The notes beneath the pieces were generated by a model. That model was not told the origin of the DNA. It saw only the letters and a program-made list of their open reading frames with translations, and made no database searches. Shown piece after piece: positions 7,432-18,151 of a DNA stretch of 43,085 nt. Positions within the stretch are counted from its first letter, which is position 1. Every line of letters starts with the position of its first letter. Position numbers and translations under genes: made by a program. The stretch is taken from positions 1 to 43,085 of the forward strand of contig JAILKG010000281.1 in NCBI GenBank assembly GCA_024693915.1. Direction: 5' to 3'. The stretch comes from Treponema sp. (GTDB taxonomy: Bacteria > Spirochaetota > Spirochaetia > Treponematales > Treponemataceae).

Positions 7432-7437
7432 GTGGCC

Positions 7438-8220
7438 ATGAGTTCATCCCAATATCAAAAAAAACTGGATTTATTGCTTGAGTATATGGGCCAAGCCGAA
7501 ACAGAAGTTCAGAATGGAAAAACTGATAAAATAAAACCTTCACTTTTGCTCCATGCCTGCTGCGGACCATGTTCTTCCTATGTACTTGAGTATCTTACCT
7601 CTTTTTTTGATATAACAATTCTCTACTACAATCCAAATATTTATCCGGAAGCAGAATATTTTCGCCGTCTGAATGAACTGAAAAATCTTCTGCCACGCTT
7701 TCCTGCAGCCTTAGAAAATAAGGTAAAACTTGTGGAGGATACATATAATCCGGATGATTTTTACAGGGCTATAGGAATAAAAGAAAATCCTGAATTGGCA
7801 GATGAAGAAGAGAAGGGTGAACGCTGCCGCCGCTGTTATGAGTTCAGGTTAAAAAGAGCTTATGAATATGCGGCAAAAAACAAATTTGATTACTTTTGCA
7901 CTACTTTAAGCATCAGCCCTTTTAAAGATGCGGAAAAGATTAATATTATTGGCCAGAAGCTGGAAAAAGAATCGGACAGTGTTTATGAAGGGCTGGAAGA
8001 AGAATCCGAAGGTAAGCTTTCTTTGGGCGCTCAAAGAGAAGAAAAAAAAATTGAGGGACCTCGCTGGCTTCCAAGTGATTTTAAGAAAAAAGGCGGTTTT
8101 AAAAGGAGCCTGGAATTGAGCGCGGAATACGGCCTTTACCGTCAGCAATACTGCGGCTGCGTTTACAGTAAAAAGAATACAGAAAAAGCAAGGGAAAAAT
8201 ACGGCCTTTCAGAAAAATAG
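7438..8220 (+). CDS. queH: Epoxyqueuosine reductase QueH
   Basis: About 260 residues. QueH (DUF208) reduces epoxyqueuosine to queuosine in tRNA, replacing the unrelated QueG. The cysteine ligands for the Fe-S/metal centre are all visible: HACCGPCSS near the N-terminus, ERCRRCYEFRL in the middle and YCGC near the C-terminus. 'STTLSISPFKDA'-like sequence (CTTLSISPFKDAEKIN) is also typical. The track start at GTG 7432 is unlikely because TATAAT ends at 7431; ATG 7438 fits a leaderless message. A charged low-similarity insert (ESEGKLSLGAQREEKK) lies before the last Cys motif. There are no queuosine-pathway neighbours in the window. Confidence 0.93.
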   Translation: MSSSQYQKKLDLLLEYMGQAETEVQNGKTDKIKPSLLLHACCGPCSSYVLEYLTSFFDITILYYNPNIYPEAEYFRRLNELKNLLPRFPAALENKVKLVEDTYNPDDFYRAIGIKENPELADEEEKGERCRRCYEFRLKRAYEYAAKNKFDYFCTTLSISPFKDAEKINIIGQKLEKESDSVYEGLEEESEGKLSLGAQREEKKIEGPRWLPSDFKKKGGFKRSLELSAEYGLYRQQYCGCVYSKKNTEKAREKYGLSEK

Positions 8221-8284
8221 GCGACCTGCAGCCTGGGCCCACGCAGAGTCATATTAAGGCAAAGGCATTATATACAAAACTAAC

Positions 8285-8314
8285 AAAAAAAAAGTGGTAA
8301 GGTCTGCGTACCAC
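8285..8314 (-). terminator. Terminator for the TPM-family transcript; one of two related repeats
   Basis: On the minus strand, GTGGTA pairs with TACCAC and is followed by nine T. The loop CGCAGACCT and the flank reading GCGTTTTTTGG recur at 21146-21187, so this is also an interspersed repeat. Confidence 0.7.
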
Positions 8315-8345
8315 AGGCCAAAAAACGCGCATTAATGCGCTAGAC

Positions 8346-8403
8346 GCTGTTTGTGGCAAAGGAACAATTATATGCCGCTAACGCGGCAACCACAAACAGA
8401 GTC
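8346..8403. repeat. Nested inverted repeat (cruciform)
   Basis: Outer arms CTGTTTGTGG and CCACAAACAG (10 bp) enclose an inner TGCCGC-TAAC-GCGGCA hairpin. No T run follows the inner arm. Confidence 0.6.
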
Positions 8404-8485
8404 TTTTTGCTTCGCGCACTTCGTGAGTCCGCGGCACGCTTTCCCCGTTTCAAATTTTTTGTGAATAGGATCTATAATGCCTTTG

Positions 8486-8579
8486 CCCGAAGAGCCCCGC
8501 AGCTTACCTGCGTAGCTTACAGCGTAAGGGACCCGAAGAGCCCCGCTGCTTGCCTGCTTTTCTTGCAGCGTAAGGGATA
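8486..8579. repeat. Two tandem copies of a ~46-bp unit
   Basis: Both units begin CCCGAAGAGCCCCGC and end CAGCGTAAGGGA. The interiors differ (AGCTTACCTGCGTAG versus TGCTTGCCTGCTTTT). Non-coding. Confidence 0.65.
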
Positions 8580-8691
8580 GTAGGGGCAGCCCGCAAGGGC
8601 TGTTCCGAAGGGCAGGAGCCCTGAGGAATGCAGGCGAAGGCCGGAACCCCGAATAGCCCGACCCGGCTTGCCGGGTTACGCCCTAAAAAAA

Positions 8692-9714
8692 TTAATTTAT
8701 GATTCCTGTTATGTTTCCCTGACTGTCGGTGGTAAAATCGTGGGCCTTAAGAGGTGCACCGCAGCCAGGACATTTTTTGTGAAATCCGATGAGGTATTCG
8801 GTGCCGCAGTATTCGCAATTGTCGTGTTCGTTGAAATTTTCCGGGCAAAGAGTTGCAGAGCGGTAGATTTCTTCTTTATTAGGATGGAAGCCACCAAAAG
8901 CAAAGAGAAATACAAGAATTATCAGGGCAAGGAACAAAATACTTAAGATAATTGAGCCTTTTGAAATATAAACCTGCATAACCCGCTGGTTTAAGTCGGT
9001 AAAAGCCATTGCCAGGGCTTCTTCCACAGAATATTTATCTTTTTGAAGAAGATATTTTTGAAGATGTCGGTTAAAAAATCTGCTTGCATCGACGGAAAGA
9101 ATATTATCGGTGTCCTTGCCCTGCATTCCTTCCCATTTCCAGTCCTGGAATTCCCCTTCCATAACTTGTGGAACAGAGTAAACGATAAGCCAGTGTTTTT
9201 CGTCCTCGAACATATTTACATAGAGTTCATAAGCATATATTTCCAGAGAATCGTAATTATTTATCCAGGATTCTTCCTTTACAGTAATAATTGCAGGACG
9301 AATTTTAGTTTGTTCGTAAAAGTCGCTCATAGCCTGGGAAAGACCTGTGGTGTCGCTGAAAAGATTTAGATCATCTTTGATTACAATTGTTTCCTGTCCG
9401 GCGCTGGCAATCTCTTCAGGACTCCAGTCAAGGGCTTTTGGATTGTGAATCTGGAGAACAACAGAAAGTACCCAGAATAAGAGAGCTATGATTAATTTAG
9501 TAACTTTTCGCCTGCTCTGCTTTGTTTTGGTGATATCGTAATTTGCCCAGATATAAACGGGTTTATTGTTTTCAAAATAAATGTAGCGCTGTGCCCCGGG
9601 GAATTTTTTTGACACTGCTTTATCGCTTTTGATTGTGGTGTGTCCTCCCAAGATGCTTTCTGAGCCAGAATGGCTTCCGCCAGAGTTGCTTTCCCCTTCA
9701 GATGAATGTGGCAT
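8692..9714 (-). CDS. TPM-like membrane protein with zinc ribbon, paralogue 1
   Basis: 340 residues, most diverged of five paralogues here. Order: Ser/Gly/His-rich head (MPHSSEGESNSGGSHSG), 'FPGAQRYIYFENNKPVYIW' segment, membrane span, TPM-like domain, second span, C-terminal zinc ribbon (CEYC and CPGC). The TPM part shows the DEKHWLIVYS strand and WEGMQGKDTDNIL, corresponding to the GLEGxLTD-type motif of TPM proteins. Predicted topology puts the TPM domain outside and the ribbon in the cytoplasm. No catalytic function is proven. It starts at the conserved MPHSS with ribosome-binding site CAGGAG. Its leader (9715-9802) matches that of the BAX-inhibitor gene. Assignment to TPM is by motif pattern, not a database search. 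Confidence 0.8.
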   Translation of the reverse strand: MPHSSEGESNSGGSHSGSESILGGHTTIKSDKAVSKKFPGAQRYIYFENNKPVYIWANYDITKTKQSRRKVTKLIIALLFWVLSVVLQIHNPKALDWSPEEIASAGQETIVIKDDLNLFSDTTGLSQAMSDFYEQTKIRPAIITVKEESWINNYDSLEIYAYELYVNMFEDEKHWLIVYSVPQVMEGEFQDWKWEGMQGKDTDNILSVDASRFFNRHLQKYLLQKDKYSVEEALAMAFTDLNQRVMQVYISKGSIILSILFLALIILVFLFAFGGFHPNKEEIYRSATLCPENFNEHDNCEYCGTEYLIGFHKKCPGCGAPLKAHDFTTDSQGNITGIIN

Positions 9715-9802
9715 GAATTACTCCTGTGATAGGCCGCTGGCGGCCGGTGTTTAATAGCAAAGCGTTAAAAAAAATGCGATAGCATTTTTTAGCTTTACTT
9801 AC
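9715..9802 (-). promoter_or_regulatory. Structured leader of TPM paralogue 1 (copy B of shared module)
   Basis: On the minus strand: GTAAAGCTAAAAA, hairpin AATGC-TATC-GCATT with eight T (9767-9790), AACGCTTTGCTATTAAA with a possible -10 box, hairpin GGCCG-CCAG-CGGCC (9732-9745), then CAGGAG. It aligns almost base for base with 5594-5680 up to the last hairpin. The terminator stem differs by a compensatory A-T/T-A swap. Confidence 0.7.
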
Positions 9803-9860
9803 TGATATATTGAAAGTCCTTAAAAAATTGCGAAGGAAATTTTTAGGCTATCATTATGTA

Positions 9861-9896
9861 TTTTTGGCCGGCGGGCCTAAGGCCGACGGGTCAAAA
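9861..9896 (-). terminator. Probable terminator after YD-repeat gene 1
   Basis: An imperfect GC-rich dyad (CGGCC-TTA-GGCCCG core) is bordered by A and T runs, immediately downstream of the stop at 9898. Confidence 0.5.
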
Positions 9897-9897
9897 A

Positions 9898-10653
9898 TTA
9901 TCCGTAAATTGTTATGTAGTATTCCTTTATTTTTTTGACTTTTCCATCTTCTGTCAGTTCGTAAACAAAAAAGCTCTCAACTTCGTAATCGTCCTGCTTT
10001 TCACATGTAAAAAGCAGTTTTCCTTCTTTTGAATAAATATATTCTCTATAATTTCCGCTGGAATAGCTTTCTTTTATAAGACGGCCTTCTTCATCGTAGG
10101 AATAAAGGGTTGAATCTCCATAGGAATATTCCATTTTAACTTTCTGGCCGGCATTGTTGTATGTGTATCTTTCTGAGTAGAGAAGGATTTCCCCTTCGTC
10201 TTCTGATTCCCCTTGGGAAAATTCAATTTCTGAAAGTTCAATTAATTTTCCTGTCTGGTCGTAGGAATATTTTTTGCCGTAGCCTTCGCTGTTTTTTATC
10301 ATCAGAAGGAGGCCGTTTTTGTCGTATTCGTACCATTCTTCCAGACCGTCAGAATCTTTTGTGTGGGTAAGGAGGCCTTTTTTGTTGTAGTCGTAGCTTA
10401 TCTGAAAATCGCCGCTTGACAAAAGAAGGAGGCGCCCTTTTTTGTCGTAACTGTAAAAGGTTCGTGGACCGCTTTCGCTTTCTTCGCTTGTCACTCTTCC
10501 CTTGGAGTCCAGTTCCTGAATATGCTGCAGGCTTACTTCCCGGGTAAGTTTTCCTTTTCCGGGAATAAAGAAAGTTTTTTCTTCTGCACTGGCGTAAAGG
10601 GCAGAAAAAAGTAATGCAGAGCAAAAAGCAGCGATTTTTACTGTTTTTTTCAT
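9898..10653 (-). CDS. Secreted YD-repeat protein 1
   Basis: 251 residues. Signal peptide 1-23 (MKKTVKIAAF...LYASAEE). The mature part is almost wholly short repeats of the YD/RHS type: YDKKGRLLLL, YNKKGLLTH, YDKNGLLLM, YDQTGKLIE, YNNAGQKVK, YDEEGRLIK, YSKEGKLLF. Such repeats form beta-strand shells and bind carbohydrate or other ligands; no toxin domain follows. The ribosome-binding site is GGGAG. It is a close paralogue of the next gene upstream on the same strand, and both sit inside the TPM-family cluster. Function unknown; periplasmic or surface location is inferred from the signal peptide. Confidence 0.8.
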   Translation of the reverse strand: MKKTVKIAAFCSALLFSALYASAEEKTFFIPGKGKLTREVSLQHIQELDSKGRVTSEESESGPRTFYSYDKKGRLLLLSSGDFQISYDYNKKGLLTHTKDSDGLEEWYEYDKNGLLLMIKNSEGYGKKYSYDQTGKLIELSEIEFSQGESEDEGEILLYSERYTYNNAGQKVKMEYSYGDSTLYSYDEEGRLIKESYSSGNYREYIYSKEGKLLFTCEKQDDYEVESFFVYELTEDGKVKKIKEYYITIYG

Positions 10654-10731
10654 TTATAAACTCCCGGAAAATGTAAAGTGAAATCTGTGGCTAATAAAAT
10701 TAGCGGAAATTGAAATCAACCAAAAATTAAA

Positions 10732-11466
10732 TTAGCCGAAAAGAGACCACATGTATTTTTTGGAACTTTTAAGCTTTCCTTCTTCAGATAATTCATAAAC
10801 ATAAAAAGTTTCTTCTTCAGACCCCTGGATTACAGTGTGACTGTAAAGAAGGTGGCCCCTTTCTGAGTAGAAATATTCTGTGTATGTATCGTCGGAATAG
10901 GTTTTTCTTACAAGTTTCCCCTTTTCGTCGTAAGTGTAGTTTTCTTCTTCTCCGAAAGAGGTGTATCTTTTGCTTCGCCTGCCGTTTGAATTATATTCGA
11001 AGAATTCTGAATAGAGAACAACATCTCCTTCATAATAAGTTATTTCTGCCAGACGGCCATTTTCGTTGTAGGTATATTTTCTGCCGGTGCTGTCGTTTCC
11101 TCGTTTTGCCAGAAGAACATTGTTTGCATCGTAGTCATACCATTCTTCAATGTCCTCTGAAGTTTTTTTGTGGATAAGAAGACCCTGCTTGTTGTATTTA
11201 AAAATTTCTTTGTAGCCGCTGTCGTGGGAAACAGAGGAGATTCTTCCCTTTTTGTCATATTTGTAAGTAATAAGAGGACCTGAGACCTGCTGAACGCTGA
11301 AAAGCCGTCCGTTTTTGTCAAAAGTTCTTTCTTCAATCAGAGTTACATCTTTTGTGATTTCCCCTTTGTCTGGAATGGAAAAAGTCATTTCTTCAGAGTG
11401 AATATAAAATGAGGAAAATAAAAGTGTTGTAAAAATTGCAGTTAATGTTTTTGTAATTTTTTTCAT
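10732..11466 (-). CDS. Secreted YD-repeat protein 2
   Basis: 244 residues, paralogous to the 9898-10653 product over its whole length. Signal peptide 1-24 (MKKITKTLTAI...FYIHSEE). The two share 'FSIPDKGEITKDV'-like openings (FFIPGKGKLTREV in copy 1), the order of YD repeats (YDKKGRISS, YNKQGLLIH, YDANNVLLA, YNENGRLAE, YDEKGKLVR) and the end 'VYELSEEGK'. The start has AGGAG ten bases upstream. The 78-base gap to copy 1 carries copy 1's own ribosome-binding site and no terminator, so the pair may be co-transcribed. Conservation of order and length suggests a recent tandem duplication followed by divergence. Function unknown. Confidence 0.8.
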   Translation of the reverse strand: MKKITKTLTAIFTTLLFSSFYIHSEEMTFSIPDKGEITKDVTLIEERTFDKNGRLFSVQQVSGPLITYKYDKKGRISSVSHDSGYKEIFKYNKQGLLIHKKTSEDIEEWYDYDANNVLLAKRGNDSTGRKYTYNENGRLAEITYYEGDVVLYSEFFEYNSNGRRSKRYTSFGEEENYTYDEKGKLVRKTYSDDTYTEYFYSERGHLLYSHTVIQGSEEETFYVYELSEEGKLKSSKKYMWSLFG

Positions 11467-11524
11467 GGATTTATGCTCCTAAATATATATTTTACAGCGT
11501 TTTGCTACAGTTTTCCACATTTTT

Positions 11525-12526
11525 CTAACTTTTTTGAGCAATCAGTGCACCGCAGTGAGGACATTTTTCATGAAGCCCTGCAATGTAGATACCCTGGCAG
11601 TAGGAACATGTTTCCTGGTCCGTATAACCTTCCGGACATTCCACAGCAGTTCTGTATTTTTTTGTTTTTTTGCTGTTTATAGTTAAATAAATGATAAATG
11701 GCAGGTAGAAAACAATTACCACATAGAGGTTAATAGCGATTATATAGAAATATGTGCTTCCTGGGATATATTTTTTCATTGCTACAGGAGTAAGAGTATC
11801 AAAAGATGTGATTAAAGCTTCTTCAAGACTATATTTTTCGGTCTGCAAAAGGCATTTCTGGAATGTTTTGTTAAATAAATCACTTTCTTTTGAAGAAAGA
11901 ATGGAATCTGTGTCGTCACCCTGCATTCCTTCCCATTCCCAGTTGTTAAAGCCGTCGCTTAAATCCGGGTCAGCAGAATAAACAATCAGCCAGTGCTTTT
12001 CGTCCTTAAAAAGATTTAGATATAAGGCAAAGGCATATTTTTCAAGTGACTGGAATTTTGGACTCCATTCATCCTTGTAGACTGTTTTTAAAGCCGGAGT
12101 GATGCCTGTTTCTTCATAAAAACGTTCAAAGGCTTCTATTACTGCCTGTTGATTGGAAATAATATTTGCATCATCTTGAATTACAATAGAAGTGTCGTAG
12201 TTGTTGAAGAGTTTGTCTGGAGCATGCTGGAAGCTTGCAAGAATTGCAAAAGTTGAAACCAGGGCGAATAAAAGCATAAAAGCAGTTGAGCATCCTGCTA
12301 CAGTCTTTTTTTCTCTGGAATTTTTTGGGTTCGGATTATAATTTGAATATATGAATTCAGGTTTATTGTTCACATAATAAACATATTTTTTTGCGCCTTT
12401 AAAAAAGCTTGATGAAATTTTATGTGCAGACGCAGAGGATGACGAGTGAGAGCGTCTGTATGAAGAATGGTGAGAAGAGGAATGATGTCCTCCCGAGTGG
12501 CTTCCGCCTCCAGATGAGTGTGGCAT
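11525..12526 (-). CDS. TPM-like membrane protein with zinc ribbon, paralogue 2
   Basis: 333 residues. Head (1-40) rich in Ser, His and Gly (MPHSSGGGSHSGGHHSSSHH), conserved 'FFKGAKKYVYYVNNKP', membrane span near 75-99, TPM-like domain about 105-255 with DDANIIS, DEKHWLIVYS and WEGMQGDDTD, second span about 257-283, and a zinc ribbon (CSYC, CPHC) to the end. It begins at the conserved MPHSS after CAGGAG. The leader contains a GGCCCG-CCAG-CGGGCC hairpin and the same GCTAT(A/T)AAACACCGG stretch as paralogue 1, but not the terminator-like hairpin. It lies directly upstream (in transcription) of the YD-repeat genes, separated by about 58 bases. Confidence 0.82.
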   Translation of the reverse strand: MPHSSGGGSHSGGHHSSSHHSSYRRSHSSSSASAHKISSSFFKGAKKYVYYVNNKPEFIYSNYNPNPKNSREKKTVAGCSTAFMLLFALVSTFAILASFQHAPDKLFNNYDTSIVIQDDANIISNQQAVIEAFERFYEETGITPALKTVYKDEWSPKFQSLEKYAFALYLNLFKDEKHWLIVYSADPDLSDGFNNWEWEGMQGDDTDSILSSKESDLFNKTFQKCLLQTEKYSLEEALITSFDTLTPVAMKKYIPGSTYFYIIAINLYVVIVFYLPFIIYLTINSKKTKKYRTAVECPEGYTDQETCSYCQGIYIAGLHEKCPHCGALIAQKS

Positions 12527-12592
12527 TTTTTCTCCTGTGGAAGGCCCGCTGGCGGGCCGGTGTTTTATAGCAAGCCGTAAAGGTAAGCCCTG
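12527..12592 (-). promoter_or_regulatory. Leader of TPM paralogue 2 (partial copy C of shared module)
   Basis: GGCTTGCTATAAAACACCGG followed by hairpin GGCCCG-CCAG-CGGGCC (12543-12558) and CAGGAG. The stem is one base pair longer than in copy B with both sides changed, so pairing is kept. Confidence 0.65.
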
Positions 12593-12626
12593 CTAATATC
12601 ATATAATTTTTTAAGGTCTGTTTAAA

Positions 12627-12704
12627 GTGCAGGATTGAAAGTGTGCAGGATTGAGAGTGTGCAGAATTGAGGGCAGTGCAGGTTTGAGAGCATTGGATTG
12701 AGGA
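12627..12704. repeat. Imperfect 16-17-bp tandem repeat (about four units)
   Basis: Units read GTGCAGGATTGAAAGT, GTGCAGGATTGAGAGT, GTGCAGAATTGAGGGCA, GTGCAGGTTTGAGAGCA, then a partial unit TTGGATTGAGGA. A second short repeat, CCGGATTTTCAA, occurs twice just after. They lie where the body of the truncated TPM gene would be. Confidence 0.75.
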
Positions 12705-12753
12705 CTGTTCCGGATTTTCAAAACTGGATTGTGAGTAGTGCCGGATTTTCAAT

Positions 12754-12891
12754 TCAGGCTTGTAAGTAAACATATTTTGTGGCGCCCTTAAAGGAGCTGC
12801 GTCTTTTTGTTCTTGAAGAGCCGGAACCGGAATGACTGTGTCCTGAATGGTGTCCGCCAGAGTGGCTACCATCCCCTGATGAATGTGGCAT
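12754..12891 (-). pseudogene. Truncated relic of a sixth TPM-family gene
   Basis: A 45-codon frame, too short for the ORF track, reads MPHSSGDGSHSGGHHSGHSH... and ends SSFKGATKYVYLQA-stop. It matches the head and the 'FKGAKKYVYY' block of the full-length paralogues and then stops. Downstream of the stop, tandem minisatellite-like repeats occupy the space and no TPM domain or zinc ribbon is found before paralogue 2. A ribosome-binding site (GAAGGA) is still present. It could still encode a 45-residue peptide, but a gene remnant is the simpler reading. Confidence 0.8.
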
Positions 12892-12921
12892 AAATCCTTC
12901 TTTTTTCTTTTTTGGAGGTTC

Positions 12922-12962
12922 CAGCAGGCAGAGGGCTCATTTCATTCCCCCTCTGCCTGCTG
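12922..12962. repeat. 14-bp perfect inverted repeat
   Basis: CAGCAGGCAGAGGG and CCCTCTGCCTGCTG flank a 13-base loop. It lies upstream of the relic gene. No T run follows on either strand. A second dyad (CAGCCGC/GCGGCTG inside AACCGC/GCGGTT) lies at about 12987-13033. Confidence 0.65.
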
Positions 12963-13048
12963 TCGCGCTTTTCACCGTTCCGCGCTAACCGCGCTCCATT
13001 CCTTCGGAACCAGCCGCAGGCGGCTGGCGGTTACAATCGCTAACCCTT

Positions 13049-13987
13049 TTATATTTCTGCACCGCAATGGGGGCAGTTTGTGTGAAAATCTTTTATGTAA
13101 ATTCCTCCGCAGTGGAGGCATTTTTCCTGATCTGTAAAATTTTCAGGGCATTCAACAGAAATTTTGTAAATTTTCTGAATTTTTAAAGCCTTGCGGCTGT
13201 CAAAGTAAATGTTTAACCAGACAACTGCAAAAAGAATGATTAAAATCCAGAGGTTAAGTTTGCTTATGTAAATTTTCATTACCACCGGAGTCAGGGTATC
13301 AAAAGCAAGGGTGATTGCCTGTCCTACATCGTATTTTTCCCTCTGCAAAAGGGCTTTGTGCAGGCATTCGTTAAAGACTTCAACTTCTTCGTCACCCAGA
13401 ATTCTGTCGGTTTTGTCCCCCTGCATTCCTTCCCAGCTCCAGTTTTCAAAGTCATCAGCGGAACTTTCCCCCTGGCTTTGCATGTCCTGACTTGAATAAA
13501 CAATCAGCCAGTGCTTTTCGTTTTCTTCAAAAAAATCTATATAGCGGTCGTAGGCATATTTTTCCAGATTTTCGTAGTCATTTTCCCAGTCTGAATTGTA
13601 AACAGTAAGAACAGAAGCTGAAATTCCGGTTTTTTCAAGAAAGCGGTCTAAGGCTCCGTAAACTTCTCCGGCATCTTTAATTACATTTGCTTTATCCATT
13701 ACAAAAGATTTTGTATCGTAATTCTGACGCAGTTTTACAGGCCAGTGCATCAGGTATAAAAAACAGATGGCAAAAATAAAGGCAAGAATTACAGAATACA
13801 TTAGTAAATTTGTTTTTTCTTCCTTTGTGATGTCCTGGTTTGTGTAAAAGAATTTTGGTTTATTGTTTTTGTAGTAAAGATATCTTGCTGCACCCTTGTA
13901 GTATCTTCTGCTAAAAGAGCTGGTGGTGCTAGAAACTCCAGAATGGCGTCCGCCTGAATGGCTTCCCCCTCCCGATGAATGTGGCAT
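13049..13987 (-). CDS. TPM-like membrane protein with zinc ribbon, paralogue 3
   Basis: 312 residues, the shortest full copy. Short head (MPHSSGGGSHSGGRHSG), 'YYKGAARYLYYKNNKPKFFY', membrane span, TPM-like domain with KANVIKD, EKHWLIVYSS and WEGMQGDKTDRIL, second span, and ribbon CLHC/CPHC. It is the last gene of a three-gene unit: paralogue 4 ends 20 bases before this start and the ribosome-binding site AAGGAGA sits in that gap. Relative to copies 4 and 5 it has an insertion (DMQSQGESSADDF) before the WxWEGMQGD motif. After it comes a GC-rich non-coding block, not a clear terminator. Confidence 0.82.
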   Translation of the reverse strand: MPHSSGGGSHSGGRHSGVSSTTSSFSRRYYKGAARYLYYKNNKPKFFYTNQDITKEEKTNLLMYSVILAFIFAICFLYLMHWPVKLRQNYDTKSFVMDKANVIKDAGEVYGALDRFLEKTGISASVLTVYNSDWENDYENLEKYAYDRYIDFFEENEKHWLIVYSSQDMQSQGESSADDFENWSWEGMQGDKTDRILGDEEVEVFNECLHKALLQREKYDVGQAITLAFDTLTPVVMKIYISKLNLWILIILFAVVWLNIYFDSRKALKIQKIYKISVECPENFTDQEKCLHCGGIYIKDFHTNCPHCGAEI

Positions 13988-14007
13988 TTTTTTTGAACTC
14001 TCCTTTT

Positions 14008-15051
14008 TTAATCTTTCTTTTGTATTTCAGCTCCGCAGTGAGGGCACTTTTCATGCAGGCCGGCAATGTAGATTCCCTGACAGAAAGGGCATTTTTCCTG
14101 GTCTGTGTAGCCTTCCGGGCATTCTACCGCACTTCTGTATTTCTTTTTTTTCTTGCTGTCGCTGATTATCAGAAGCATAGGCGGCAGGAACATAACAGAG
14201 AAGACGATGCAGGCTATTATGGCTATAGTTGTTGCAAATGGAGGAATATATTTTTCCATTGCAATGGGAGTCAGAGTATCAAAGGCGGATGAAACTGCTT
14301 CTCCTATGCTGTATTTGTTCCTCTGTAAAAGATATTTCTGAAAGTTTTCGTTGAATAATGAGGTTTCTCTGTCGCCTAGAATCGGGTCAGTGTCGTTTCC
14401 CTGCATTCCTTCCCATTTCCAGTCGTCAAAATTATCAGAAAGGTCAGAGTCCGGCAGATATACAATGAGCCAGTGTTTTTCGTCTTTAAAATTCTCTATA
14501 TACCAGTCGTAAGCATATTTTTCAAGCTGATCGTTTTCCGGAATATTCTGGTATTTCAGGACTTCTTTATCCCATTCTTCTCTGGAAAGAGTTTTTAAAG
14601 CCGGTGTAATGCCTGTCTGGTTAAAGAATCGCTCAAATGCATCTCTTACAAGAACTTTGTCTGAAATTATATCTGCGTCATCCTGGATGACTATTTCCGT
14701 ATTGTAATCGGTTAAAAGTTTTTTTGGGGCGTGCCTGCTTGTAAGCATAACCAGCCCAAGAGACAGGAATATAAAAAAGATCCAGATTGCAGAAAGACAG
14801 CCAAATGCAAGCGTTTTTTCGCAGCCGTCGTTGGGTTTTATGTCGTAGTTTGCGTATATGTATTCCGGTTTTTTGTTCACATAGTAAACGTATTTTTTTG
14901 AGCCTTCAAAATAACTTGAAGATTTTTTGAAGGTCGGCCTGTAGCTGGAAGAAGAGTATCCTCTGGAGTAGTGATAGCTGTGTGAACCTGAATGATGTGA
15001 ACCTGAGTGGTATCCGCCTGAGTGGCTTCCGCCGCCTGATGAATGTGGCAT
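14008..15051 (-). CDS. TPM-like membrane protein with zinc ribbon, paralogue 4
   Basis: 347 residues, middle gene of the three-gene unit. The head is long and Ser/His/Tyr-rich (MPHSSGGGSHSGGYHSGSHH), followed by 'YFEGSKKYVYYVNKKPEYIY', a membrane span, the TPM-like domain (DDADIIS, DEKHWLIVYL, WEGMQGNDTDPIL), a second span and ribbon CPFC/CPHC. It is closest to paralogue 2, sharing 'YRTAVECPEGYTDQE'-like and 'GIYIAGLHEKCPHCGA' sequence, which points to recent duplication. It has an extra seven-residue segment (LKYQNIPENDQ region) in the TPM domain. The gap to paralogue 5 is 12 bases, so translation is probably coupled within one mRNA. Confidence 0.83.
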   Translation of the reverse strand: MPHSSGGGSHSGGYHSGSHHSGSHSYHYSRGYSSSSYRPTFKKSSSYFEGSKKYVYYVNKKPEYIYANYDIKPNDGCEKTLAFGCLSAIWIFFIFLSLGLVMLTSRHAPKKLLTDYNTEIVIQDDADIISDKVLVRDAFERFFNQTGITPALKTLSREEWDKEVLKYQNIPENDQLEKYAYDWYIENFKDEKHWLIVYLPDSDLSDNFDDWKWEGMQGNDTDPILGDRETSLFNENFQKYLLQRNKYSIGEAVSSAFDTLTPIAMEKYIPPFATTIAIIACIVFSVMFLPPMLLIISDSKKKKKYRSAVECPEGYTDQEKCPFCQGIYIAGLHEKCPHCGAEIQKKD

Positions 15052-15063
15052 TTTTTTCTCTCC

Positions 15064-16230
15064 TTACAATCCGTGGTAATAAATATCTTCTTCGTCTTTG
15101 TCGCTGGCTTTTAAGATTTCTTCGTAATTTTTGATTTTGGAAGCAACATCTTCGCTTGTAGGACCATTTTTGCCGTAGGTGTAGGAAGCCTTGTTCTTGC
15201 CGGAAGCTTCTTTATCTTTAAAAACTGGATCAGACTGAATATCCGGCTGATAAGTTCCCGGCTGGTTTTGAAGTGGAATAGGTGCTCCGCATTGCGGACA
15301 TTTTTTGTGAAGCCCGGCAAGGTAAAGCCCATTGCAGTATTCGCATTTTTCCTGATTTGTGTAACCCGCCGGACATTTTTTTGCCATCCTGTATTTTTTA
15401 TTTAAAGGATGAACTCCAAATTGGGCAATTATAAAGATTATGGCAAATATTGAAGTAACAACAAATGACAGAACGGCATCCTTTTCGATATAGGTATCCA
15501 TTACGATGGGAGTAAGTTCGTCAAAGGCGAAGGTTATAGCCTGTCCAACGTCGTATTTGTCCCGCTGCAAAAGGCTTTTCTGCAACTCTGAATTAAAGAC
15601 ATCTCTTTCCCTTCTTTTCAGAATTGAATCAGTGCTATCGCCCTGCATTCCTTCCCAGGCCCAGTCGTCAAAATCGTCGGATAAATCGGTGTCTGCAGCA
15701 TATACAATCAGCCAGTGCATTTCATCGCTGAAATGATCCACATACCAGTCGTAGGCATATTTTTCAAGACTTGAGTAGGATTCCTTCCATTCTTTATCGG
15801 TTATTGTAAGGATAGCCGGAGTAATTCCTGTTTCATCCTGGAATCTTAAAAGGGAATCGTATAGACTTTCCCGGTCGCTAACTACATTCATTTCATCCAG
15901 AATCTGAATCTGGGTGTCGTAGTTCATGTTCAGCTTGTATGCCTTGCGTTTTATTGTTGAGAAGCTGATAAAACAGATGAAAATAGCAAATAAGCAGCGG
16001 AAAAAAGTTTTTGCAATATATTTTATGTCTTTAAAATCCGGTTTTACCGCAAAATTTGTAAAGAAATAAACCGGCTGTCCATTCTGATAGTAAACGTATC
16101 TTATGGCTCCCGGAAAATAGGTATTTTTTGAAATTCTTGATTGACCTGAGCCAGAGCCTGAACGGCTTCCAGAATGGCTTCCAGAGTGACTTCCACCTGA
16201 GTGACTTCCACCGCCTGATGAATGTGGCAT
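15064..16230 (-). CDS. TPM-like membrane protein with zinc ribbon, paralogue 5 (extended C-terminus)
   Basis: 388 residues, first gene of the three-gene unit. The head is a Ser/Gly/His repeat (GGSHSGSHSGSRSGSGSG). Then 'YFPGAIRYVYYQNGQPVYFF', a membrane span, a TPM-like domain (DEMNVVSD, DEMHWLIVYA, WEGMQGDSTDSIL), a second span, and ribbon CEYC/CPQC. Unlike its paralogues it continues some 60 residues past the ribbon with a charged, probably cytoplasmic tail ending 'DKDEEDIYYHGL'. The ribosome-binding site is GGGGAGA. The upstream gap of about 184 bases is shared with divergent ettA and carries AT-rich promoter-like sequence for both. Confidence 0.83.
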   Translation of the reverse strand: MPHSSGGGSHSGGSHSGSHSGSRSGSGSGQSRISKNTYFPGAIRYVYYQNGQPVYFFTNFAVKPDFKDIKYIAKTFFRCLFAIFICFISFSTIKRKAYKLNMNYDTQIQILDEMNVVSDRESLYDSLLRFQDETGITPAILTITDKEWKESYSSLEKYAYDWYVDHFSDEMHWLIVYAADTDLSDDFDDWAWEGMQGDSTDSILKRRERDVFNSELQKSLLQRDKYDVGQAITFAFDELTPIVMDTYIEKDAVLSFVVTSIFAIIFIIAQFGVHPLNKKYRMAKKCPAGYTNQEKCEYCNGLYLAGLHKKCPQCGAPIPLQNQPGTYQPDIQSDPVFKDKEASGKNKASYTYGKNGPTSEDVASKIKNYEEILKASDKDEEDIYYHGL

Positions 16231-16414
16231 AAATTCTTTCTCCCCGATTACGATATATATTTTTGTAAGACGCGTCCGTTTTACACTTTAAAATATTTTA
16301 TTCAAAAGCCCTAATATCATTCCTATTATAGAATGAAAGGATAAAATGTGCTATATTATAATTGAAAGAAATAATCTGTATTAAATATTTAAGAAATTGT
16401 AAGGAGTAGTTTGG

Positions 16415-18151
16415 ATGGCAAAAACTTTTGACGACAAAAAAATCATCTACACAATGGACAGAGTTTCCCGTGCTTACGGAACAAAGGTTGTTTTAAAAGA
16501 TATAAGCATTTCTTATTATTACGGGGCAAAAATTGGTGTGCTTGGTGCTAATGGCGCCGGAAAATCATCTCTTTTTAAGATTCTGGCAGGAATCGATAAG
16601 GATTTTACAGGAGAAACAACTCTGGCTCCGGGATACACAATCGGCTATCTTGAGCAGGAACCATACCTTGAACCTGGAAAAACTGTAATGGAAGTTGTAA
16701 AAGAGGGCGTAAAGGAAATTACAGACCTTCTTGAAGAATTTGACAAAATTAACGAAGCATTTGGTGACCCGGATGCAGATATTGATAAACTCTGCACCCG
16801 CCAGGGTGAAGTTCAGGAAAAACTGGACGCTCTTGACGCATGGAATCTTGATAACAATCTTGAACTGGCTATGGATGCTCTCCGCTGTCCGCCAAGCGAT
16901 CAGGTGGTAGACGTACTTTCCGGAGGTGAACGCCGCCGAGTTGCCCTCTGCCGCCTTCTTCTTCAGAAACCGGATATCCTGCTTTTGGACGAACCTACCA
17001 ACCACCTGGACGCAGAAACTGTTGCCTGGCTTGAAAAGCACCTCCACGATTATCCGGGAACTGTTATTGCCATTACCCACGACCGCTACTTCCTTGATGA
17101 AGTTGCAGGCTGGATTCTGGAACTTGACCGCGGTGAAGGCTTTCCTTTTAAGGGAAATTATTCCAGCTGGCTTGAACAGAAGAATCAGCGTCTTGCACTT
17201 GAAAGCAAAAACGAATCTGCCCGCCAGAAGGAAATCCAGAGAGAACTTGAATGGATTCACATGGGCGCTAAAGGACGCCAGGCTAAGCACAAGGAACACA
17301 TTACCCGCTATAATGAACTTATGAGTCAGGAAGCAAAAAAGCAGCTTAAAGATACCCAGATAAGTATTCCTGCCGGGCCACGTCTTGGCGGGCAGGTTAT
17401 TGACCTGGAAGGAGTTTCAAAATCCTTTGGCGACAAGCTTTTGTTCGACAACCTGAGTGTTCACATTCCTGCCGGTGCAATCGTTGGTATTGTAGGACCA
17501 AATGGCGCCGGAAAAACAACACTTTTCAAGATGATTGCGGATGCCGCTGGTTTTGAAAATGGAGAAAAGCCTGATTCAGGAACAATCAAAGTTGGTTCAA
17601 CTGTAAAACTGGTTTATGTAGACCAGATGAGAAGCGGTCTTGATCCAAATAAAACAGTATATGAAACTTTAGGCGGCGGCGCCGATATGATTAAGCTTGG
17701 TGCTGTGGACGAAAAGGGCCGGGCTCTGGAAGGCGGTGTTCGTGAAGTTAATGCCCATGCCTACTGCGGCTGGTTCAACTTTGCCGGTGCAGACCAGAAC
17801 AAAAAGGTCAGCGTACTTTCCGGTGGAGAGAAGAACCGCCTGAATCTGGGTATGATGTTAAAGGAAGCAGGAAACGTTCTTTTGTTCGACGAACCTACAA
17901 ATGACCTTGATGTTCAGACTGTTCGTGCTCTGGAAGAAGCTCTTGAAGATTTTGCCGGCTGTGCCATGGTTGTAAGCCATGACCGCTGGTTCCTGGACAG
18001 AATTTGTACCCACATCCTGGCATTTGAAAACAATTCTGAAGTCCGTTTCTTTGAAGGAAACTGGTCAGAATATGCTGAATGGAAGATGAAGGAATTCGGA
18101 GAAGAAGCCGGAGTTCCAAAGAGAACTGTATACAGAAAACTTTCCAGATAG
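16415..18151 (+). CDS. ettA: EttA: energy-dependent translational throttle, ABC-F ATPase
   Basis: 578-residue soluble ABC-F protein with two ATPase domains and no membrane span. Domain 1: Walker A GANGAGKS at 44-51, signature LSGGERRR, Walker B LLLDEPTNHLD. Domain 2: GPNGAGKTT, LSGGEKNR, LLFDEPTNDLD. The inter-domain linker contains WIHMGAKGRQAKHKEH, typical of EttA, which binds the ribosomal E site and restrains initiation when ADP is high. The start has AAGGAG. It is divergent from the TPM unit; a weak -10 candidate TATAAT lies at 16357-16362. It is followed by the PspC gene 60 bases on, without a terminator. Confidence 0.96.
   Translation: MAKTFDDKKIIYTMDRVSRAYGTKVVLKDISISYYYGAKIGVLGANGAGKSSLFKILAGIDKDFTGETTLAPGYTIGYLEQEPYLEPGKTVMEVVKEGVKEITDLLEEFDKINEAFGDPDADIDKLCTRQGEVQEKLDALDAWNLDNNLELAMDALRCPPSDQVVDVLSGGERRRVALCRLLLQKPDILLLDEPTNHLDAETVAWLEKHLHDYPGTVIAITHDRYFLDEVAGWILELDRGEGFPFKGNYSSWLEQKNQRLALESKNESARQKEIQRELEWIHMGAKGRQAKHKEHITRYNELMSQEAKKQLKDTQISIPAGPRLGGQVIDLEGVSKSFGDKLLFDNLSVHIPAGAIVGIVGPNGAGKTTLFKMIADAAGFENGEKPDSGTIKVGSTVKLVYVDQMRSGLDPNKTVYETLGGGADMIKLGAVDEKGRALEGGVREVNAHAYCGWFNFAGADQNKKVSVLSGGEKNRLNLGMMLKEAGNVLLFDEPTNDLDVQTVRALEEALEDFAGCAMVVSHDRWFLDRICTHILAFENNSEVRFFEGNWSEYAEWKMKEFGEEAGVPKRTVYRKLSR

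Follow-up and report, generated by a model that had tools for sequence, protein, structure and literature searches.

A Treponema array of paralogous membrane-anchored TPM–zinc-ribbon proteins with an invariant N-terminal head

A chaperone-like role towards membrane complexes has been proposed for the TPM domain (PMC11237479). Psb32 and TLP18.3 act on photosystem II (PMC13089150), Msmeg_4692 is found in the mycobacterial bcc:aa3 supercomplex, and CcoZ is needed for the cbb3 oxidase (PMC8267372). In Bacillus subtilis, YdjG, a zinc-ribbon protein, and YdjH, a TPM protein, serve as anchors for PspA and for the SPFH protein YdjI (PMC8581546). Here, we describe a cluster of five paralogous proteins (P1 to P5) from a rumen Treponema sp. 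that unite a TPM domain, a zinc ribbon and an invariant N-terminal head in a single chain. The cluster lies in contig JAILKG010000281.1 (assembly GCA_024693915.1), of which positions 1–43,085 are referred to below as the window.

Among the closest known systems, YdjH and YdjG of the B. subtilis pspA-ydjGHI operon resemble the window proteins in being membrane-integral and in offering a TPM domain with a low-complexity segment, a membrane helix and a zinc ribbon. However, the window proteins carry the TPM domain, two helices, the ribbon and the invariant head in one polypeptide and are multicopy, and neither a PspA nor an SPFH gene in the operon was found with them. Psb32 and TLP18.3 share the TPM fold (structural-alignment Z scores of 13.0 and 12.1) and lie on the non-cytoplasmic membrane face, as predicted for the window domain, but they have no head or zinc ribbon, and their client, photosystem II, does not exist in these anaerobes. 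The mycobacterial subunit (Msmeg_4692/PRSAF1; Z of about 11.4–12.5 for the mycobacterial chains) and Campylobacter CcoZ (Cj1484) likewise have a TPM fold and either bind a membrane complex or are required for one, whereas their clients are respiratory and their domain make-up is different. Finally, BA41 and BA42 of Bizionia argentinensis and the TPM domain of Rhom172_1776 match in fold (Z 11.6–13.3), but were solved as lone TPM domains and are only around 10–12% identical in sequence.

TPM fold, zinc ribbon and invariant head

We modelled P4 (14008–15051, 347 amino acids; this and all features of the array given below are on the minus strand) with AlphaFold2 from an alignment of 81 relatives, and obtained a mean predicted local distance difference test score (pLDDT) of 89.1 and a predicted template-modelling score of 0.74. 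The model comprises a disordered head, a beta-hairpin carrying the block (F/Y)xGAxRYVYYxNxxPxxxYxNYD (residues 46–70, 14842–14916), a first membrane helix (residues 78–104, 14740–14820), a mixed alpha/beta domain with the motifs DEKHWLIVY and WxWEGMQGDDTD (residues 117–268, 14248–14703), a second membrane helix whose Lys/Arg-rich end is predicted to be cytoplasmic (residues 271–305, 14137–14241), and a small C-terminal domain; the zinc ribbon, CxxC-x11-CPxC, spans residues 321–339 (14035–14091). Structural alignment of the alpha/beta domain to solved structures returned 13 TPM chains with Z scores between 11.4 and 13.3, including, besides Psb32 and TLP18.3, BA41 (13.3), the mycobacterial supercomplex subunit (12.5) and the Rhodothermus TPM (11.7), while the first unrelated rows scored 7.5 or less. 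At the level of the predicted structure, these data show that the TPM fold between two membrane helices is genuine. Foldseek rows to ATP synthase gamma subunits in the pdb set were rejected, as the antiparallel helix pair is most likely all that they reflect.

Sequence profiles capture this relationship unevenly. The Pfam TPM model (PF04536) gave 14.3 bits for P1, below its curated cut-off of 22.1, and did not list P2 to P5; a Treponema relative (L024_A, 25.2 bits) and an R. bicirculans copy (L064, 28.3 bits) exceeded the cut-off, and 44 of the 81 family members matched at E ≤ 0.01. In the R. bicirculans copy (L064 5884–7014), we also observed an apparent internal duplication within the TPM domain, covering a portion of it, with two DWQGxYSxLExxAYDxYV stretches. 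A sequence search of solved structures yielded noise-level rows only, including Tll0404, a homologue of Psb32 (E 0.31). NCBIfam provided no meaningful name for P1 to P5, and the family is unnamed in both Pfam and NCBIfam.

The four cysteines of the zinc ribbon are invariant across the 81 sequences. Pfam zinc-ribbon models stayed below threshold on the window copies; a model of the ribbon fragment (pLDDT 78) had C4 zinc ribbons and fingers as its top Foldseek rows, each of them a weak match. With regard to topology, Lys and Arg residues number 4.6 on the distal, C-terminal side of helix 2 as compared to 1.3 before it, whereas the charges flanking helix 1 are balanced and thus uninformative. The Lys/Arg cluster after helix 2 would place the zinc ribbon inside the cell, and therefore the head inside and the TPM domain outside, so that the charge distribution supports a topology in which the head, hairpin and ribbon would be cytoplasmic and the TPM domain periplasmic.

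The most striking conservation was found at the N terminus, where P2 to P5 share their first 13 residues without a single difference (MPHSSGGGSHSGG, shown on P4 at 15013–15051). Among the intact copies, this head is degenerate in P1 only (MPHSSEGESNSGG), and a truncated relic copy differs from it by a single change; the variable part of the paralogue N termini is the low-complexity stretch that follows. The family consensus reads MPHSSGGGSH(S/G)GG. The start falls within the called open reading frame in 80 of the 81 relatives; in these, residues 2–5 are always PHSS, residues 6–9 are GGGS in all but P1, and 77 have His at residue 10. As the relatives were fetched by motifs of the TPM domain, this conservation is not a selection effect, and since the Ser and Gly codons of the head vary among relatives, the constraint acts on the protein rather than on DNA or RNA. 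In 11 whole genomes, all 29 exact occurrences of the head start a family member, and a reversed control pattern gave none. Judged from these counts, the head is exclusive to the family and the most constrained part of the protein. We did not find it in the literature searched.

Long MPHSSGGGSH paralogues of Saccharofermentans-type Clostridia (L130 and L133, 464–490 amino acids) share the head, the hairpin and the helix–TPM–helix core with the window proteins, but have no C-terminal zinc ribbon, which is replaced by extra hydrophobic segments and a charged DYKRMKRxGFE tail. Since they keep the head in the absence of the ribbon, the head is the stricter family marker of the two.

These results bear out the TPM-like domain, the two membrane spans and the Cys4 zinc ribbon proposed in a preliminary description made from the sequence alone. 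Of the divergent heads and domain insertions also proposed there, the former did not hold for the first 13 residues, which are the same in P2 to P5, and the insertions within the TPM domain are small (6–9 amino acids).

Layout of the array

The cluster occupies the interval between queH (7432–8220) and ettA (16415–18151), with all genes on the same strand. Gene calls are the longest open reading frames. In the direction of transcription it begins with P5 (15064–16230, 388 amino acids), which has the common architecture plus a C-terminal tail of around 65 residues, followed by P4 and P3 (13049–13987, 312 amino acids). The gaps separating these three genes are 12 and 20 bp; the close packing noted in the preliminary description is thus real, and their joint transcription, also claimed there, is suggested by this spacing. 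Upstream of P5, a promoter-like TTAATA-18-TATAAT element (16355–16384) matches the consensus, although the total count of such matches was not clearly above that in shuffled sequences. Next comes the relic (12757–12891), 45 codons that cover the head and the GATKYVY block and read MPHSSGDGSHSGGHHSG...FKGATKYVYLQA* up to a stop, and then P2 (11525–12526, 333 amino acids) and, at the far end, P1 (8692–9714, 340 amino acids).

The five proteins are between 38 and 60% identical, approximately, and share around 80 invariant columns in an end-to-end five-way alignment. When the 2.6-Mb genome was searched with a profile of the five, it returned these and the relic (E 4e-10) and nothing else, in line with the five full copies and one relic originally described.

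Two genes for secreted YD/RHS-repeat proteins, Y2 (10732–11466, 244 amino acids) and Y1 (9898–10653, 251 amino acids), separate P2 from P1 and share the orientation of the array. Both have counterparts interleaved in the cluster of a sister species (L024; 70% identity for the Y2 orthologue, 39% for Y1), and none were present in the other carrier loci examined. A full-length relative occurs in one congener, which is devoid of the TPM family, and scattered partial repeat matches were seen in other genomes.

Repeats also occur in non-coding parts of the block. Directly downstream of the relic, 12627–12752 contains tandem repeats of 16 bp (3.9 copies) and 31 bp (1.9 copies). The intergenic stretch after queH (8230–8690) is G+C-rich (53%), with palindromic and 46-bp tandem repeats, and a similar G+C-rich stretch lies around 12890–13040. 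Rfam gave no match within the block.

Distribution and history of the family

In a sample of 296 Spirochaetota genomes, the family was found in the window's genome only, together with one marginal partial match elsewhere, and in none of the sampled congeners. Outside this sample, three further Treponema-type genomes carry it, with five (L024), two (L008) and two (L049) copies. By comparison, Clostridia of the rumen and gut carry the family commonly and often in several copies: within one Clostridial family, 73 of 115 genomes had between one and eight matches, counted from six-frame matches in which copies may be split or merged. Most of the genomes are metagenome bins, and absences may therefore be gaps. 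Phage, plasmid and viral-contig collections contained no homologue, and BFVD returned sub-threshold rows only. An expansion of this kind, regarded as unusual in the preliminary description, is thus unusual for spirochaetes but not for the family.

All 14 spirochaete copies group in a single clade (support 100/95). With the long paralogues as root, this clade is nested in Clostridial sequences, in a tree whose bootstrap is not fully settled. Most likely, the founder was taken from rumen Clostridia by ancestors of this Treponema in one old transfer, which would have been followed by local radiation beside one gene. An assembly chimera was rejected, since ettA on the same contig shares 92–94% identity with its counterparts in the nearest congeners and synteny with L024 extends over the whole block (lon-axe-lipase-BI-1-thrH-queH-[cluster]-ettA-pspC-pepM18-proA). 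In L008, the two copies also adjoin ettA in an otherwise different neighbourhood. As a separate observation, the ABC-F protein EttA is 99% identical between the window and L024. The remaining shared flanking genes for which values were obtained are 66–87% identical, and whereas their synonymous divergence ranges from 1.3 to saturation, that of ettA is much lower (0.38).

Four of the paralogues have one-to-one partners in L024: P5 (L024_B, 72% amino acid identity), P4 (L024_D, 71%), P3 (L024_A, 57%) and P1 (L024_E, 54%). P2, which groups with P4 and L024_D, and L024_C have none, the copy order differs between the two loci, and the clade of P1 and its partner also includes one L049 copy. The L024 orthologue of P1 (L024 11056–12453) has a large insertion, with 465 as compared to 340 residues. 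The ratio of nonsynonymous to synonymous divergence (dN/dS) of the orthologous pairs was 0.13–0.27, a rough estimate (NG86) as synonymous sites are near or at saturation. By region, orthologues are least conserved in the membrane helices (16–73% identity) and most in the head (100%) and ribbon (73–92%); the TPM domain is not the fastest-changing part. Recent duplication was rejected, given that the coding DNA of the paralogues is only 55–65% identical. On this pattern of divergence, the paralogues represent an old diversification under purifying selection, accompanied by birth and death of copies, and not a dosage amplification. The preference for diversification over dosage voiced at the outset was supported by the lack of near-identical copies, the low dN/dS and the paralogue lineages common to both sister species.

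Genomic partners and possible function

Given the composition of the Bacillus operon, which includes TPM and zinc-ribbon domains, and the presence of PspC 2 kb from the cluster, the preliminary description had suggested a link to PspA and PspC. In an envelope stress module of this type, the proteins would anchor these at the membrane, as YdjG and YdjH do in Bacillus. We did not find PspA in 15 of 16 carriers, namely the window's genome (82% complete), the three other spirochaetes and 11 of 12 Clostridia; the same search was positive in 9 of 14 control genomes. PspC adjoins ettA in the window and in the sister locus only, the adjacency being absent from L008 and from nine congeners, and genes of the Psp system are not a recurring feature around the Clostridial homologues. 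An SPFH gene of the Band_7_1 type is present in 15 of 16 carriers, in the window's genome on another contig and outside the cluster. Within Treponema, it was found in all four carriers as compared to 10 of 23 congeners, a difference that is only suggestive (hypergeometric probability of around 0.06). In sum, none of the features of a YdjFGHI-type module, PspA in the genome, an SPFH gene in the operon and a conserved linkage to PspC, was found here. The suggested link is not supported, and we consider a Psp-type module very unlikely.

The reading that we favour, although we would place it somewhat short of an even chance, is that the cluster consists of locally radiated, membrane-anchored TPM–zinc-ribbon proteins of Clostridial origin that aid the assembly or surveillance of membrane complexes without PspA. 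The TPM domain, by analogy with the proteins described above, would bind a membrane protein complex from the outside and aid its assembly, stability or repair. The head and zinc ribbon would recruit one partner in the cytoplasm that all paralogues share, and this would account for the strongest constraint falling on these parts. Divergence of the paralogues in the membrane helices and on the surface of the TPM domain may suit them to different clients. One chain might thus work like Bacillus YdjG and YdjH combined, minus PspA.

Several points weigh against this proposal. No client or partner emerged from our analysis, and the flanking genes in Clostridia do not recur (122 proteins in 101 Pfam families, none of them found more than four times). 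SPFH Band_7_1, the widespread type of YdjH partner, shows no association in the Clostridial family, where 4 of the 73 carriers lack it, as do 3 of the 42 non-carriers. The lack of recurring neighbours or partners indicates that the protein functions with no fixed partner in the genome. Moreover, the intracellular position of the head rests on the positive-inside rule, with balanced charges at helix 1, and the TPM domains of AtTLP18.3 and BA41 have been claimed to act as phosphatases or nucleotidases (cited in PMC11237479).

These activities, together with the Pfam name, would fit a set of periplasmic acid phosphatases or nucleotidases in which the paralogues differ in specificity. Nevertheless, later authors have disputed the phosphatase assignment (PMC12419801), the invariant parts of the domain are rich in Trp, Gly and Met (WxWEGMQG), and the strongest constraint falls on the head and ribbon, which are predicted to be cytoplasmic and would be needless for an external enzyme, making this explanation unlikely. 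A role in metal handling, with head and ribbon binding or sensing Zn, Ni or Cu and the paralogues tuning metal homeostasis, could account for the conserved N-terminal His and the four invariant cysteines; we regard it as quite unlikely, as no more than two or three of the head's His residues are conserved and metal genes do not recur near the family (Ni_insertion in 2 of the 122 neighbours). Turnover of copies and of their order between sister species, the relic, the interspersed secreted YD-repeat genes and the lateral transfer could also be those of a diversifying surface family kept for immunity or resistance in inter-bacterial conflict or against phages. This would be a long shot considering the low dN/dS, the TPM domain not being the fastest part, the absence of homologues from the mobile-element and viral collections, and toxin or defence genes that do not recur as flanking genes.

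Returning to PspA-independent assembly or surveillance of membrane complexes, a bolder version, which could hold but which we rather doubt, treats MPHSSGGGSH(S/G)GG as a novel docking signature at the N terminus. Together with the zinc ribbon, it would plug a large unnamed TPM family into such a system in gut Clostridia; a few lineages of Treponema would then have taken it up and elaborated it to suit several clients. Being exclusive to the family, the head signature offers an easy search handle for a common, multicopy Clostridial family that is unnamed in Pfam and NCBIfam. If the proposed function is true, a one-chain TPM–zinc-ribbon protein active in the absence of PspA would uncouple what TPM proteins do from the Psp response and bring this role within reach of tests. 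The paralogues that arose in Treponema by transfer and local radiation form a natural panel for the study of client specificity.

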